From an uncultured Collinsella sp. (GTDB lineage Bacteria > Actinomycetota > Coriobacteriia > Coriobacteriales > Coriobacteriaceae): a stretch of 11,858 nucleotides of DNA. The DNA is taken from the NCBI GenBank assembly GCA_900754435.1, contig CAAECT010000012.1, positions 1-11,858 of the forward strand. Reading direction: 5' to 3'. Under the pieces are notes generated by a model, which saw nothing but the letters and a program-made list of their open reading frames with translations, was not told the DNA's origin and ran no database searches. A program made the translations under genes and the position numbers. Shown here one piece after another: positions 6,101 to 11,228 of the stretch. Each line of letters opens with the position of its first letter. Positions within the stretch are counted from its first letter, which is position 1.

Positions 6101-6429
6101 AGCGTAAGCGCCAGCTCCACGTTTTCCAAAATGGTCTGATGCGGAATGAGGTTATAGCTTTGGAACACAAAGCCGATGCGGTTGTTGCGATAGGCATCCC
6201 AATCGCGATTGTGAAAGTCCTTGGTCGAAATACCGTCGATTAGCAGGTCGCCGGAATCGAAATGATCGAGTCCACCGATAACGTTGAGCATCGTAGTTTT
6301 GCCCGAGCCCGAGGGACCCAGAATGGCCACGAACTCGTTATCGCGAAAAGACAGGCTTACGTTGTCGAGCGCCACCTGCATAAACGACTGCGTAACGTAC
6401 CTTTTGCAAATACCCTTGAGCTCCAACAT
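3187..6429 (-). CDS. ABC transporter, fused ATP-binding protein and FtsX/MacB-type permease with large extracytoplasmic domain
   Basis: A 1080-residue fusion. Residues 1-225 are a LolD/MacB-class ATPase: Walker A GPSGSGKT at 38-45, Q-loop Gln90, signature [15 protein letters not shown] at 142-156, Walker B with DEPTGALD at 166-173, and H-loop His198. TM1 is at about 264-286. An extracytoplasmic region of about 650 residues follows. It includes an Asp/Ser-rich repetitive stretch near 655-690 ([18 protein letters not shown]) and a helical, Gln/Ala-rich part near 760-880. Three more TMs (about 947-972, 1003-1025, 1043-1066) form the FtsX domain, with the conserved [19 protein letters not shown] between TM2 and TM3. 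Such mechanotransmission-type transporters export peptides or lipids or remodel the envelope without transporting through the membrane. ATG 6429 has GAGAGG 9 bases upstream and starts a typical [10 protein letters not shown]; a GTG at 6456 is possible but less likely. The gene is transcribed alone. The substrate is unknown. Confidence 0.93.
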
Positions 6430-6576
6430 GGACGGCAACCTCTCCCACGCGGGCACACTTGCCCGCTCTCCCCCGCCGTTCGTATTCGACGCGTTTGTCC
6501 TACTCTATCCCCATTTTTTGCCGGAACCAGTGAGGAATGTAACGAACCGCGCCAAAAAACGAACGGGACGGCGCCT
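6430..6576. other. Non-coding gap upstream of the ABC gene
   Basis: No gene is supported here on either strand. It should contain the minus-strand promoter of the ABC transporter, but I see no convincing -35/-10 pair. The GAGAGG ribosome-binding site of that gene lies at its left end (about 6439-6444). Confidence 0.5.
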
Positions 6577-6603
6577 AAAAGAAGAGGCCCCGAGCGGGAC
6601 CTC
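6577..6603 (-). terminator. Rho-independent terminator of the TlpA operon
   Basis: On the minus strand, GAGGTCCCG pairs with CGGGGCCTC (6584-6603; one mismatch in 9 bp, with the loop opening at the centre) and is followed directly by TTCTTTT (6577-6583). It lies about 80 bases after the TlpA stop codon, which fits termination of the three-gene minus-strand operon and insulation of the ABC gene. Confidence 0.75.
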
Positions 6604-6683
6604 TATATGGTGAAGCTTGTCTTGAAAGGCAGCGGACTACTCCGCACAGCGGCGCACGATCCTCGCCATGCTTTACGCGTTTT

Positions 6684-7655
6684 TTACTGCTCGCTATTCG
6701 CAATCGCCTGGTCGATAAGCTTGTCGAGTGCTGCGCGCTGCTCGGCGGAGCTGACGGCTCCCACGATTGGATCCCCTACGATGTTGCCGTTCTGATCGAT
6801 GACATACGTTGTCGGGAACGAGAACAAATTTGACGTGAACTTACCGGCCTCGCTATCCGACTTGAACCAGATGTTCTTATATGTCACGCCCTTCTTGCTC
6901 AGCACGTCCTTGGCATCTGCGATCTCGCCCTTGTTGCCATCGAGCGTAAAGGAATTGACGCCCACGACCTGGCCGCCCTTCTCGGCAAGCTCCTGATTCA
7001 GCTTCTCAAGATCGCCCAGCTCGCCCACGCACGGCTTGCAAGTAGTGAACCAGAAGTTCATGACGGTGACCTTGTTCTTAGAGAACAGCTCGTCGCTGTT
7101 CACGTCGTTGCCATCCAGGTCTTTGCCCGTAAAGCTGGGGAACTTCGTCGCCTCGCTCGAAGCATTGGCACCAGCCGTCATGCCAGCGGTCGAAGCGTCG
7201 ACGCTCTCGCCTGCGCTCGGCGTGCTTCCACAGCCGGGGAACTCCTTCTCCAAGCTCTCGAGCTTGTCCTCGATCTCCTTGATCTGCTGCGCACCAGCCT
7301 TGAGCGTCTTAAGCTCATCCGCCGTAAACTCATCCTTAGCGCCGTCGATGGTCTTGAGCAGAAAATCGCCGTAATTGCTGCCGTCCTCAATCATTGCCGA
7401 GTCTTTATTTGCCGCATTGAATACCTTTTCCCACAGCGCGTTATCACTCGAAAAGATCTCGTTCTCTTTCTGCATGAGCTTCGCATACAGCTCGGCGGCC
7501 TCGTCGGCATTGGCCGGCTTCTGCGCAGTGAGTTCTGCGATCTTAGGGTCGGAGCTCGCAGATTCGCTCGCATTGCCACCGGGCGCCGAACATGCCACAA
7601 GGCATAAGGCCAATACCGGCACCATAAACAGGGCCGCAATCTTAGAAAGCTTCAT
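6684..7655 (-). CDS. TlpA-like thioredoxin-fold lipoprotein (extracytoplasmic thiol-disulfide oxidoreductase)
   Basis: A 323-residue lipoprotein. Residues 1-21 form a lipoprotein signal peptide ending in the lipobox LVAC with Cys22 as the lipidated residue. Residues about 35-135 are charged, helical and not recognised. A Ser/Ala/Gly-rich linker follows, with an extra Cys at 142. Residues about 165-320 are an AhpC/TSA-Redoxin/TlpA domain: active site WFTTCKPC (Cys206, Cys209), cis-proline in SFPTTYVID (Pro281), and the typical insert before it. It should reduce or exchange disulfides outside the membrane. Two ATGs are possible: the one at 7661 has GGAGG only 1 base away, while the one at 7655 has it 7 bases away, so 7655 is chosen. 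It is the last gene of an operon, 29 bases after the polyferredoxin, its probable electron source. Family is certain; the physiological substrate is not. Confidence 0.93.
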   Translation of the reverse strand: MKLSKIAALFMVPVLALCLVACSAPGGNASESASSDPKIAELTAQKPANADEAAELYAKLMQKENEIFSSDNALWEKVFNAANKDSAMIEDGSNYGDFLLKTIDGAKDEFTADELKTLKAGAQQIKEIEDKLESLEKEFPGCGSTPSAGESVDASTAGMTAGANASSEATKFPSFTGKDLDGNDVNSDELFSKNKVTVMNFWFTTCKPCVGELGDLEKLNQELAEKGGQVVGVNSFTLDGNKGEIADAKDVLSKKGVTYKNIWFKSDSEAGKFTSNLFSFPTTYVIDQNGNIVGDPIVGAVSSAEQRAALDKLIDQAIANSEQ

Positions 7656-7684
7656 AGTCATTCCTCCGTTTTGTCGAAGCTTGT

Positions 7685-8587
7685 TTACTTTTTATCGGCG
7701 GTCAAGGGAAGCTTTTCCGCCGACACATCCAGGCCATAGCGATAGCTGATGGCATCGACAGGACAGGCCCCGATGCACTTTCCGCACCGGATACATTCGG
7801 CATGATTGGGCGCGCGGACCACATCAACGTCCATCTGACAAACCTTTGAGCACTTGCCGCACGAGACGCATTTGCATGCATCGACCCGGATCCCCAGTAG
7901 GGACACCCTATTCATGAGCGCATAGAATGCGCCGAGTGGACAAATCCATTTGCAGAAGGGGCGGTAGAACAAAATGCTCAGCACTACCACGGCAATGAGA
8001 ACGGCAAGTTTCCAAGTAAAGAGATGTCCCAACGCAGATCGAATGCCGGCGTTGGCAATGGCCAGCGGAATGGCGCCCTCGAGCACGCCCTGCGGACAGA
8101 TGTACTTACAAAAGAACGGGTCTCCCATGCCCACGTCGTTAACCACCAAGACGGGCAGCAGCACCACGGCAAACAGCAGCACGACGTACTTGATGTACGT
8201 GAGCGGCTTGAGCTTTTTCGTGGAGAACTTTTTGCCGGGAATCTTATGAAGCAGCTCCTGCAGCCAGCCAAACGGGCACAGAAACCCGCATACAAAGCGA
8301 CCCAGCAGCACGCCGAGCAAAATGAGCGTACCGGTAACATAGTAAGAAAAGTTGAACTTGGATGAACCTACCACCGACTGGAACGACCCGATGGGGCACG
8401 CACCCGATGCCGCGGGGCACGAATAGCAGTTAAGCCCGGGTACGCAGACTGTTTTTCCCGCGCCCTGATAGATGCCGCCTTTGGCAAAGTTTGGCAGGTG
8501 AATGTTGGTAATAAGTGTTGCCGCCGCCTGAATGAATCCGCGAAATCGGGCCAAAACATGCGACGCAGTGTTTTCTCTTTTATCCAA
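7685..8587 (-). CDS. NapH/YccM-type membrane-bound 4Fe-4S polyferredoxin
   Basis: A 300-residue integral membrane iron-sulfur protein. From a TTG start, an N-terminal region carries CVPGLNCYSCPAASGACPIG (Cys48, 54, 57, 64). Membrane segments lie at about 77-97, 131-150 and 191-208. Three Cys-x3-Cys-Pro motifs follow helices: CGFLCPFG (100/104), CKYICPQG (160/164) and CKWICPLG (212/216). Two classical 4Fe-4S ferredoxin clusters end the protein: CVSCGKCSKVC (240-250) and CIRCGKCIGACP (265-275). It probably carries electrons from the cytoplasm to or across the membrane. TTG 8587 is preferred: it gives the usual short polar N-terminus before RGFIQAAATLITNIHLPNF, has a GGAG 10 bases upstream and overlaps the stop of the preceding small gene (TTGGATAA), indicating translational coupling. 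A GTG at 8677 in the same frame would wholly overlap that small gene and adds an atypical sequence. Confidence 0.9.
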   Translation of the reverse strand: MDKRENTASHVLARFRGFIQAAATLITNIHLPNFAKGGIYQGAGKTVCVPGLNCYSCPAASGACPIGSFQSVVGSSKFNFSYYVTGTLILLGVLLGRFVCGFLCPFGWLQELLHKIPGKKFSTKKLKPLTYIKYVVLLFAVVLLPVLVVNDVGMGDPFFCKYICPQGVLEGAIPLAIANAGIRSALGHLFTWKLAVLIAVVVLSILFYRPFCKWICPLGAFYALMNRVSLLGIRVDACKCVSCGKCSKVCQMDVDVVRAPNHAECIRCGKCIGACPVDAISYRYGLDVSAEKLPLTADKK

Positions 8588-8726
8588 TTCCGATACACTC
8601 CAAGCACAGCCTAATCGCCTTGGCCAGCACGGCATCCGCCTCGCCACGCATAACGCCAAAGCACACCATGGCCACACCGACGATCAGCAACGCAACCCGC
8701 ATTACAGGTTTTACCGCTTTGAACAA
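8580..8726 (-). CDS. Small CXXC-tailed membrane protein (CD1871A family-like)
   Basis: A 48-residue protein from TTG 8726, or 40 residues from the in-frame ATG 8702. It begins MFKAVKPVMRVALLIVG, has one hydrophobic helix (about residues 9-25), then MRGEADAVLAKAIR, and ends in CLECIGIG followed by TAA. A short membrane protein with a conserved C-terminal CLECIGIG is, from memory, the hallmark of the CD1871A-type CXXC family found beside membrane ferredoxins and TlpA-like proteins in anaerobes. AGGAG at 8735-8739 lies 8 bases before TTG 8726 but 32 bases before ATG 8702, so the TTG start is favoured. It is the first gene of the redox operon; its stop overlaps the polyferredoxin start by 8 bases. 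The CXXC may bind a metal or shuttle electrons or thiols between the ferredoxin and TlpA; the function is not known to me. Confidence 0.8.
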   Translation of the reverse strand: MFKAVKPVMRVALLIVGVAMVCFGVMRGEADAVLAKAIRLCLECIGIG

Positions 8727-8816
8727 CCTGACCACTCCTTTCGTTACGCGACCATTGGACCATATCGGCTATAAAATCCGTGTTAAGCGCGATTTGAAAT
8801 GTGCAAGGAGACTGTT
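8727..8816. promoter_or_regulatory. Divergent control region between the redox operon and the two-component system
   Basis: This 90-base gap must hold both promoters. Plus strand: TATAAA (8770-8775) is a good -10 for the response regulator, without a clear -35. Minus strand: TTAACA and TATGGT separated by 16 bases are a candidate pair for the redox operon. AAGGAG (8805-8810) is the ribosome-binding site that decides the regulator start, and AGGAG (8735-8739, minus) that of the small CXXC gene. No repeated regulator-binding motif is obvious. Confidence 0.45.
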
Positions 8817-9491
8817 ATGCGTATTTTGATCGTCGAGGACGAGCGGGCGCTGTGTGACGCAATCGCGCGCAGCTTGCGAAACCTGGCATACAGCGTCGAC
8901 TGCTGTCACGACGGACAGGAGGCGCTCGACCTACTGGACGTTGATGCCTTTGACCTCGTGGTACTCGACCTCAACCTTCCCCGCATCGACGGCATGACCG
9001 TACTCAGGAAACTTAGGAAAACTGACTGCGAGACTAAGGTACTGATTCTGTCCGCACGCGGCGAAGTATCCGATAAAGTCGCCGGACTCGATGCCGGCGC
9101 CAACGATTACCTCACCAAGCCGTTCCATCTGGACGAGCTTGCGGCAAGGATTCGCAGCCTTACCCTCAGACGCTTTACACAAAGCGACATAGTATTAACC
9201 TGCGGAAAGCTCCGCTTTGACACCAAGGCGCGCATCGCTTCCGTGGACAGTGAGGCTTTATCTCTTACGCGCAAGGAAACGGGAATCTTGGAATACCTGA
9301 TGCTTAATCAGGGGCGTCCGGTAAGTCAAGAGGAGCTTATCGAGCACGTTTGGGATAGCAGCGTGAACAGCTTTAGCAACGCAACCCGCGTTCACATCTC
9401 GTCGCTCCGCAAAAAGCTGCGCAGCGTTTTGGGATACGACCCGATTCGCAATCGGATTGGAGAGGGCTACGTTATGGAGGATAGCGAATGA
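8817..9491 (+). CDS. OmpR/PhoB-family DNA-binding response regulator
   Basis: A 224-residue two-domain regulator. The receiver domain (1-115) has the acidic pair Glu7/Asp8, the phospho-accepting Asp51 in VVLDLNLP, Ser79 at the switch position and the conserved Lys101 in YLTKPF. The winged-helix Trans_reg_C domain (about 125-222) carries LTRKETGILEYLMLNQGRPVS, the recognition-helix region ATRVHISSLRKKL and the terminal IGEGYVM. An ATG at 8799 is in frame, but ATG 8817 has AAGGAG 6 bases upstream and starts the canonical MRILIVEDE, so it is chosen. The 3' end overlaps the histidine kinase start by 4 bases (ATGA), so the pair is co-transcribed and translationally coupled. It is divergent from the redox operon across about 90 bases, making that operon a natural candidate target. 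Confidence 0.95.
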   Translation: MRILIVEDERALCDAIARSLRNLAYSVDCCHDGQEALDLLDVDAFDLVVLDLNLPRIDGMTVLRKLRKTDCETKVLILSARGEVSDKVAGLDAGANDYLTKPFHLDELAARIRSLTLRRFTQSDIVLTCGKLRFDTKARIASVDSEALSLTRKETGILEYLMLNQGRPVSQEELIEHVWDSSVNSFSNATRVHISSLRKKLRSVLGYDPIRNRIGEGYVMEDSE

Positions 9492-10627
9492 AAAGGCTTT
9501 CCCTGCAATGGCGCATAACGATTATGACGGCACTGCTCACGTGTGCAGCATGCGTGCTGACGAACTGCCTGGTCGGCTATACGGGCATGCGCTACATGGA
9601 TGCCATCGGCAGTAACATCTCGGCCTTTAACGCAACCGGCGAAGATTCGCCCCAGGCGTTCGACCCAACGAAAGCGACCCTCGATAACGAGGTCACGATC
9701 GTCGTAAACGACGCACAGGAGTCTTTTGGCACGACGACCTGGTACATCACGGCTGGAGTCACACTCCTTGGCGGCGCGCTGGCATACTTTGTGAGCGGCC
9801 GTGCGCTCAAACCGCTACGGGCTTTTGCAGCCCAGGTTGAGCGTGTGCAGCCTGACAACCTAAGCGAAATCAGACTCAGTGAAGATGCGCCCACCGAGCT
9901 ACAACGATGCAGCGCCTCTTTCAACAACATGATCGCCCGTCTTGGCGAAGGGTTCTCTGCACAGCGTCAGTTTACCGGCAACGCCGCACACGAGCTGCGC
10001 ACCCCGCTCGCCCTTATGCAAGCACAGATTGAACTATTCATCTCCGAGCACTCCGGTTTGCAACCCGAAACAGCCGAGCTGCTCGGCCTGCTACAAGAAC
10101 AAACCGAGCGCATGTCTCGAATGACCAAGGTATTGCTCGAGATGAGTGAGCTCCGCAGCGTTCCTTGCGAGGACGATGTTGAACTTGGCCCCTTGTCCGA
10201 AGAGGTCCTCGCCGACCTTGCGCCACTTGCCGAAAATAAGGACGTAACCCTCGATTGCGCCGGAGACGCTTTGACAATCGGAAGTGATACGCTCCTCTAT
10301 CGGCTGGTGTTTAATCTGGTCGAAAACGCCATCCGTTACAGCCGCTCCGGCTCGACTGTCAACGTCTCCATCAGCGACAGCGACAGCCACGTGCTCCTAC
10401 GAGTCAAAGATGAGGGTCCAGGAATACCCAAGCAGTACCGAGAGAGCATCTTCCAGCCGTTCTTTCGTCTAGACAAATCCCGCAGCAGGGCATACGGCGG
10501 CGCAGGACTCGGACTAGCGCTCGTTTGGGAGATTGCAACGCTTCACGGTGGCGCTGTAGAGGTCGAAACAAGTTCCGAGAACGGAACCGTGATGCTCGTG
10601 ACCCTCTCAAAGGGGGCCACCACGTGA
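9488..10627 (+). CDS. Two-component sensor histidine kinase
   Basis: A 379-residue membrane kinase with complete catalytic boxes. TM1 is at about 10-32, followed by a short extracytoplasmic loop of about 50 residues (33-83) with no recognised sensor fold. TM2 is at about 85-103, followed by a HAMP-like linker (GRALKPLRAFAAQVERV). The dimerisation domain carries the phospho-acceptor His168 in NAAHELRTPLAL. The ATPase has the N-box NLVENAIRYS (Asn280), G1 DEGPGIP (308-314), the F-box FQPFFRLDKS and G2 GGAGLGLAL. GGAGG lies 7 bases before the ATG inside the end of the regulator gene. The pair resembles the CssS/QseC-type architecture in which small loops or the membrane sense envelope state. The signal is unknown; the neighbouring thiol-redox operon suggests envelope or redox stress, by inference. 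No obvious terminator follows; gene debris begins immediately after the stop. Confidence 0.94.
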   Translation: MKRLSLQWRITIMTALLTCAACVLTNCLVGYTGMRYMDAIGSNISAFNATGEDSPQAFDPTKATLDNEVTIVVNDAQESFGTTTWYITAGVTLLGGALAYFVSGRALKPLRAFAAQVERVQPDNLSEIRLSEDAPTELQRCSASFNNMIARLGEGFSAQRQFTGNAAHELRTPLALMQAQIELFISEHSGLQPETAELLGLLQEQTERMSRMTKVLLEMSELRSVPCEDDVELGPLSEEVLADLAPLAENKDVTLDCAGDALTIGSDTLLYRLVFNLVENAIRYSRSGSTVNVSISDSDSHVLLRVKDEGPGIPKQYRESIFQPFFRLDKSRSRAYGGAGLGLALVWEIATLHGGAVEVETSSENGTVMLVTLSKGATT

Positions 10628-10951
10628 TCCGACTGTCCAGGAGTTCCACTCGGCATTGTGAAACGCGTCCCAAAACTTGGACATGAGGAATGGAAGGCAG
10701 CAGTTCGCATCTATGCCGAGGACGAAGTCCTGGCGGGGATTCAGGATGCGCAGAGGAAGCTTACGGCAGAAAACCCCGACAGAGTCGTGACCGTCGGTGG
10801 CAACTGTATGGCGTCGCTTGCCCTCTTCGATTACCTGCACGGGAAATACGAGAACGTTGGAATCGTCTGAATCTATGCGCATCCGGATGTATCCACGCTG
10901 AATGATGGCTACCCCAACGCTCACGCCATGGTACTTGGCAGCCTTTTGGGA
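10628..10951 (+). pseudogene. Arginase/agmatinase-family remnant with internal TGA
   Basis: The reading frame 10628-10867 includes KRVPKLGHEEWKAAVRIYAE and VVTVGGNCMASLALFDYLHG, matching the middle of ureohydrolase-fold proteins, where a GG-H/N-C segment precedes the first metal ligands. It then meets TGA at 10868-10870, and the same frame continues IYAHPDVSTLNDGYPNAHAM to LGSLLG at 10951. Intact relatives read WIDAHPDVST here, so TGA replaces Trp (TGG to TGA) and the metal-ligand Asp of the D-A-H-P-D motif is Tyr. The N-terminal portion of the family and everything after LGSLLG are missing. No credible start with a well-placed ribosome-binding site exists (a GTG at 10658 has AGGAG 14 bases away). 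This is a dead fragment, possibly of an agmatinase-like enzyme. Confidence 0.75.
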
Positions 10952-10952
10952 G

Positions 10953-11228
10953 AAAGTCATCCTGGTCTTCGGCGGCGAATAACTCGAATGTCTGCAGGCA
11001 GACTCCAACCTGTGCGCGGAGAAGCTGGGCGACGCAAACAAGAGTCCTCGGCTCGAGCATGGAGATGAATCCGTCTATCAGTCTCATCGCATACTCAGAG
11101 GAGGATGCCAGATATAGATCCCATTGGGTAAAGTCGCCGTTCATGAAGGGAATCACTGCATTGCGCTCGGCGGCTCTCAAGGCACTCAGGCTTTGTTCTA
11201 TTTCCCAGCTTCTTGTTTGAACTGTTCG
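10953..11228 (-). pseudogene. Antisense fragment of an unrecognised protein
   Basis: On the minus strand a frame with natural-looking composition (open from about 11228) reads NAVIPFMNGDFTQWDLYLAS, then MRLIDGFISMLEPRTLVCVA, QLLRAQVGVCLQTFELFAAE and DQDDFL. It has alternating hydrophobic/charged helices and balanced amino-acid use. At about 10953 the pattern ends exactly where the arginase-family fragment on the other strand ends. Beyond that, the frame becomes Arg/Ser/His-rich, as expected of an antisense shadow. No proper start (TTG at 11180 only) or ribosome-binding site is visible, so both ends appear truncated. I do not recognise the family. Confidence 0.45.

Follow-up and report, generated by a model that had tools for sequence, protein, structure and literature searches.

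The results of our analysis showed that a 48-residue protein with a C-terminal CXXC motif, encoded in a window of 11,858 nucleotides (the whole stretch of DNA that was analysed) from an uncultured Collinsella sp., is paired nearly exclusively, and in both directions, with one subfamily of polyferredoxins. This micro-protein is probably the thiol relay on the outer side of a pathway that carries reductant across the membrane, from ferredoxin to a TlpA-like lipoprotein. The features on which the argument is built are as follows.

8580..8726, minus strand: micro-protein gene; TTG start, 48 aa, one transmembrane (TM) segment, ends CLECIGIG; NF040920 family
8595..8606, minus strand: CLEC (CXXC) codons, residues 41-44, read from the sequence; kept in relatives, members being chosen on the two Cys
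8735..8741, minus strand: AAAGGAG, likely ribosome-binding site, 8 nt 5' of the TTG
7685..8587, minus strand: Fer4_5-type polyferredoxin, 300 aa; probable start a TTG that overlaps the stop of the micro-protein gene; PF12801 80.9 bits, cut-off 22
6684..7661, minus strand: TlpA-like lipoprotein with CKPC motif and lipobox; AhpC-TSA and Redoxin 57.1 and 52.2 bits, cut-offs 26 and 26.6
8817..9491, plus strand: divergent OmpR-type response regulator; PF00072 108.3 bits, PF00486 67.5 bits; cassette member in Coriobacteriia
9488..10627, plus strand: sensor histidine kinase; PF02518 93.2 bits, PF00512 48.5 bits; cassette member in Coriobacteriia
6670-10611 of the window (6340-10364 of locus L176, 6644-10667 of locus L177): five-gene cassette with sharp ends

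The earlier note had proposed a TTG-started gene of 48 codons ending in CLECIGIG, with a proper ribosome-binding site, one TM helix and a C-terminal CXXC, and in all of these respects it was borne out. The frame runs on the minus strand from 8726 to 8580 (48 codons and a TAA), the plus strand reading differently. The AAAGGAG at 8741-8735 and the TTG are kept in 19/19 coriobacterial copies (the window and 18 others, L019-L021 being excluded as too distant), and a GTG nine bases upstream of the TTG is lost in L017. The NF040920 profile gave 65.8 bits for the 48-residue form and 64.9 bits for the 51-residue form (cut-off 32; positions 2-38 of 38), and the protein, which has a single hydrophobic segment, shows the layout of that family, one TM segment followed by a CXXC right at the C-terminal end; comparison with Pfam gave nothing at E 0.01. 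A protein search retrieved 154 relatives among 155 candidates, with Collinsella, Olegusella and Slackia among the names given by their sources, and a search with an eight-sequence alignment retrieved 5017 among the 7998 candidates scored. The genome nearest to the window has 64% of its sampled sequence words in common with it. Of 58 relatives, 20 have the family, as do 18 of the 35 genomes of the nearest genus, and none of 14 control genomes gave a match.

The small frame is under purifying selection and the overlapping long start of the polyferredoxin is not. Among 13 distinct coriobacterial sequences the pN/pS of the small frame was 0.19, and 0.15 in its overlapped part, versus 0.83 in the overlap for the +1 frame of the long polyferredoxin start, which also carries a stop in L001. 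This is the opposite of an unconserved small frame beside a conserved longer polyferredoxin N-terminus, the pattern that the earlier note had named as counting against its gene. That note had also described the small gene as wholly overlapped by the long start; the overlap is present but extends over 98 of 147 bases (from GTG 8677), and the long start is itself unsupported. Because the long-start frame is not conserved, the true start of the polyferredoxin, whose frame has a pN/pS of 0.43 past the stop of the small gene, is most likely TTG 8587 and not GTG 8677. The notion that the small frame is simply the 5' part of a longer polyferredoxin, to which the GTG frame open from 8677 lends itself, can be dismissed with near certainty in view of these pN/pS values and the stop in L001, of an NF040920 score twice the cut-off and of the 5017 relatives.

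NF040920 is an already named family, the 'CD1871A family CXXC motif-containing protein' of NCBIfam, and the name carries no function. The earlier statement that the small member has no established role thus holds in so far as no functional study of the family name, of the motif or of NapH with TlpA was found in the open-access literature, but the family itself had been named before. Clostridioides difficile CD1871, which shares its number with the family name, is called an ABC transporter permease in an available part of PMC11326576; PMC12772354, in an available part, lists CD18710 under a conjugative transposon.

The polyferredoxin reaches the Pfam gathering score of Fer4_5 membrane Fe-S proteins and fails the NapH model TIGR02163 (69.7 bits versus a cut-off of 213.05, with a match only at 223-313). 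No Pfam match at E 0.01 was obtained for DsbD_TM (PF02683) in the polyferredoxin, or for the catalytic-subunit domain of ferredoxin:thioredoxin reductase in the polyferredoxin or the micro-protein. The lipoprotein qualifies as a TlpA/ResA-like exported thioredoxin by its domain scores and by its CKPC and lipobox, these last two being read from the sequence; it misses the specific ResA and TlpA NCBIfam cut-offs (ResA-type 48.7 bits versus 170).

A DNA pattern scan of named genomes returned 48 places, and at 39 of these there is a frame with a CXXC at its C-terminus; the places include Lachnospiraceae, Oscillospiraceae, Selenomonadales, Treponema, Synergistaceae, Desulfobulbaceae and Aminicenantes. 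Together with the window and 21 loci from relative genomes, these 39 named loci make up 61 anchored loci. A same-strand polyferredoxin lies 3' of the micro-protein gene, or overlaps it, in 61/61, and a TlpA match lies on either side in 55/61. Three of the six loci lacking TlpA (L002, L033 and L046) end at contig edges and three (L031, L034 and L035) do not; a rhodanese adjoins at L035, and a carboxymuconolactone-decarboxylase-family protein with CPMC at L031. Redoxin or AhpC-TSA were the commonest neighbour domains, in 23 of the 88 neighbour proteins scanned out of 111, a count obtained with a simple gene caller that missed the polyferredoxin in 4/40 loci. Methionine sulfoxide reductase, considered as a regular neighbour, was rejected, since it fell outside the 25 commonest of 89 families in these 88 proteins.

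The pairing was equally marked when whole genome sets were searched from both sides. In the set of 119 Coriobacteriia, 14 genomes contain the micro-protein, at 15 places in all. The same 14 have polyferredoxins of at least 221 bits, also at 15 places, and by coordinates each of these adjoins a micro-protein; the next score is 82. The second sample consisted of 199 genomes of the phylum around a Clostridium sp., of which 28 have a micro-protein at E <= 0.001 (24 over the NF040920 cut-off). Polyferredoxin scores in this sample were bimodal, with 31 genomes contributing 33 places of at least 174 bits and another 78 places scoring 83 bits or less, and all 28 micro-protein genomes are among the 31 polyferredoxin genomes (Fisher p 4e-31). 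The polyferredoxin is on the same strand and less than 300 bp away at 26 of the 28 micro-protein places (L106 being judged by coordinates); of the remaining two, L100 is interrupted by a group II intron reverse transcriptase and L109 has a gap of 0.7 kb. The three polyferredoxin genomes without a family match have a CLSC or CFSC variant directly upstream, and, with variants counted, a micro-protein precedes 31 of the 33 strong polyferredoxins. Beside the weaker Fer4_5 proteins (44 to 83 bits), a CXXC frame was found in 0/13, these being 13 of the 78.

The three-part thiol-electron association suggested from the window alone is therefore conserved far outside this genus, and its interpretation gains support. 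The association of the three genes is not in itself new, because a 2025 preprint (PMC12637426), in its available part, describes a three-gene '4Fe-4S ferredoxin / TlpA / CxxC protein' operon in gut bacteria, six instances from Clostridia and one from Firmicutes, with TlpA always present and the CxxC gene between the other two in all but one. The same three kinds of gene stand side by side in both cases, whereas the present module, compared with those instances, is from a coriobacterium, has the order micro-protein, polyferredoxin, TlpA and adjoins a divergent two-component system. What is new here is the nearly exclusive two-way pairing, with an FMN-binding lipoprotein at its two exceptions, as well as the scarcity of DsbD/CcdA in coriobacterial carriers and the five-gene cassette described below. 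Several loci vary the arrangement: at L140 the genes of the micro-protein and the polyferredoxin are separated by a group II intron reverse transcriptase, at L055 the micro-protein domain ends a frame of 220 residues with extra membrane helices and without a Pfam match, and Oceanirhabdus seepicola (G061, locus L043) has five copies of the family. Plasmid carriage was rejected, a search for it having given 1 of 72,556 records at E 1e-30.

An alignment of 104 polyferredoxins, among which some places were fetched twice, was used to locate the cysteines. The loop-0 motif fits 87 of them, of which at least 98% have Cys at each of 18 columns; loop 0 accounts for four of these columns, loop 2 for two, a pair of CX3CP motifs beside TM1 and TM3 for four and the two ferredoxin motifs for eight. 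The remaining 17 retain most of these cysteines, the first of loop 0 aligning in 35% and one of loop 2 in 71%. Loop 0 has about 0.08 K+R per residue and loop 2 about 0.06, compared with about 0.14 for loop 1 and 0.13 for the part after TM3, a pattern which suggests that loops 0 and 2 are outside and the ferredoxin motifs inside; the position of loop 0 is uncertain because the first TM segment is weakly hydrophobic and falls below the detection threshold. In the micro-protein, net positive charge is greater on the N-side of the TM segment in 76 of 92 members, and about 14 residues separate this segment from the CXXC. All 92, which were picked by their CXXC endings, have a Gly 17 residues before the first Cys and end at most four residues past the second. 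This charge pattern fits a location of the CXXC, with six cysteines of the polyferredoxin, on the outside.

In seven named loci the micro-protein and the polyferredoxin share one frame across the stop of the small gene, and as a modelling device L063 was translated through this stop and submitted to AlphaFold with a 68-row alignment. The joined chain (pLDDT 83.6, pTM 0.82) is modelled with the micro-protein as a helix at 2-24 and a second helix at 27-42 that reaches the CXXC; it offers no usable interface, and confidence is low at and after the CXXC and in loop 0. A Foldseek comparison of the model with the PDB gave 23 matches, none at E <= 0.001 and the best in the ferredoxin part. Sequence searches of the PDB, among the matches listed (60 each), placed those of the polyferredoxin at its ferredoxin end with none resembling the membrane part, and gave no match for the micro-protein.

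The two strong polyferredoxins that lack a micro-protein are both second copies, L141 in genome G081 and L142 in genome G200, and both retain the loop-0 cysteine motif as CCPGLNCSSC. Ahead of the gene of L141 stand a protein with FMN_bind (55.4 bits versus a cut-off of 22) and one matching Oxidored_molyb (30.3 bits versus 24), and L142 reads almost like it, with an FMN_bind lipoprotein ahead, identified there by reading the sequence, the Pfam test covering L141. An FMN-binding partner is the outer carrier known for NapH-like transmembrane Fe-S systems in the available part of PMC8238504. The position that the micro-protein has elsewhere is thus taken, at these two loci, by an outer redox carrier of a known type, which points to the micro-protein as an outer-side electron acceptor and is the best evidence for this role that the sequences provide.

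In the pathway that we propose, cytoplasmic ferredoxin would supply low-potential electrons to the two C-terminal 4Fe-4S motifs of the polyferredoxin, which would move them through membrane Fe-S sites, formed by the two CX3CP pairs, to an outer face rich in cysteines. The micro-protein, with its N-terminus inside, one TM helix and its CXXC at the outer membrane surface, would accept the electrons there as a dithiol and, by a presumed contact, reduce the lipoprotein TlpA, which would in turn reduce exported substrates. In Coriobacteriia the two-component system would control this pathway.

An alternative that we judge unlikely is that the two cysteines of the micro-protein are ligands, so that it would complete an Fe-S cluster on the outer face or stabilise the polyferredoxin, with TlpA reduced by the cluster or by the CYSC pair of the polyferredoxin. 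A C-terminus fixed within four residues of the second Cys and the near-obligate pairing are both consistent with this, and the six presumably outside cysteines of the polyferredoxin would make two four-Cys sites with the two of the micro-protein. However, L141 and L142 keep their loop-0 cysteines in the absence of a micro-protein, which is therefore not needed to complete that site there, and thiol relays usually take the CXXC form, as the relay that we favour does.

The genomic surroundings in Coriobacteriia bear on a second alternative. In 11 of 12 coriobacterial regions (all but L178) the module has a response regulator and kinase like those of the window nearby. The cassette made up of TlpA, polyferredoxin, micro-protein, response regulator and kinase measures 3.9 kb, and two families have it in common at a DNA identity of about 91%. 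Genomes G340 and G325, which belong to two coriobacterial families, neither of them that of the nearest genome, have 4030 bp in common at 91% DNA identity, with ends just outside TlpA and the kinase, and share three short matches outside this block; the stretch of the window matching G340 is 6670-10611. The polyferredoxins of G340 and G325 are 94% identical to that of the window, and that of the same-genus genome G022 is 79% identical. The ABC and MFS genes of the window lie outside the cassette. The best reading of these identities and sharp ends is that the five-gene cassette was likely transferred recently between families.

Outside Coriobacteriia, a response regulator was present in the fetched DNA at 4 of the 39 named loci, and the regulator is thus not part of the wider core; the two-component system was rejected as a universal partner of the module. 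The second alternative, a reverse flow in which oxidation of outside thiols feeds electrons inward, or redox sensing by TlpA and the micro-protein on behalf of the two-component system, draws on the 11 coriobacterial regions and the shared cassette. It is nevertheless improbable, since this scarcity beyond the class means that sensing is not the core role and since TlpA-type proteins usually act as reductants. An Rfam search found nothing in the window, and promoter and terminator scans performed no better than on shuffled sequences. Downstream (3') of the kinase, at 10658-10981, there are interrupted short frames resembling gene remnants, the pieces of which have no Pfam match.

The relay has partial counterparts among known systems. 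As in the NapH-like systems of PMC8238504, in the part available, a Fer4_5 membrane protein would carry electrons across the membrane to an outer carrier, and an FMN_bind protein adjoins the partnerless paralogue L141; unlike in those systems, the proposed outer carrier is a CXXC micro-protein with TlpA and the NapH cut-off is not reached. The available main text of PMC8238504 makes no mention of TlpA. By analogy with CcdA/DsbD, the module would supply reducing power to exported thioredoxin-fold proteins and would be an iron-sulfur substitute for them; it differs in having a polyferredoxin without DsbD_TM and in an expected donor that is ferredoxin, acting through Fe-S clusters, and not cytoplasmic thioredoxin. 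Ferredoxin:thioredoxin reductase uses the chemistry of an Fe-S cluster acting on a disulfide, with a thioredoxin-fold acceptor. The module would resemble it in passing electrons from Fe-S cluster to disulfide, whereas that enzyme is soluble and, as noted above, finds no Pfam counterpart in the polyferredoxin or the micro-protein.

We compared carriers and non-carriers of the module for DsbD/CcdA. DsbD_TM had no match in 12 of the 14 module-bearing coriobacterial genomes (controls positive in 10/14), the others being G325, over the cut-off, and G022, below it; two of eight same-genus genomes without the module have it. The TlpA domain of the window was found in 13 of the 14 coriobacterial carriers (not in G327) and in none of the eight same-genus non-carriers. 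In the phylum sample DsbD_TM was present in 11 of 28 module genomes versus 132 of 171 others, and in 14 of 31 versus 129 of 168 when all polyferredoxin genomes were taken, a trend with many exceptions in counts that are uncorrected for descent. Since 11 of the 28 carriers also have DsbD_TM, the module is not a strict replacement of DsbD/CcdA. The same genomes make it very unlikely that the module serves cytochrome c maturation, as ResA does with CcdA in Bacillus: the TlpA is related to ResA-type proteins (the 48.7 bits given above, under the cut-off of 170), but ResB, of system II, was matched in only one of the 14 coriobacterial carriers, and marginally there (controls positive in 5/14).

Several of the anaerobes examined encode an exported TlpA without a CcdA/DsbD match, and for these the module is a candidate route for reducing outside proteins, with ferredoxin in place of cytoplasmic thioredoxin as the presumed source of electrons. 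We put forward more tentatively, as a possibility that could well prove wrong, a broader proposal: that a ferredoxin-fed Fe-S protein requiring a CXXC peptide of about 48 residues is a widespread extracytoplasmic analogue of ferredoxin:thioredoxin reductase, its outer acceptor exchangeable between thiol peptide and flavin lipoprotein, standing in for CcdA/DsbD in many anaerobes and carried in Coriobacteriia as a mobile cassette with a two-component system. The relay reading suggests a function to be sought for a named, uncharacterised micro-protein family. The available part of PMC12637426 reports that its operon predicts side effects of cancer immunotherapy and suggests redox effects without giving a mechanism, and a defined reaction would make this link testable.

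The coriobacterial genome with DsbD_TM over the cut-off, G325, has a second TlpA match 121 bp past it, both in open frames of 448 aa. At C1:798341-799579 the DsbD_TM and this second TlpA-like match apparently belong to a single 448-aa frame, so that this TlpA of G325 seems to be fused with its own reductant.
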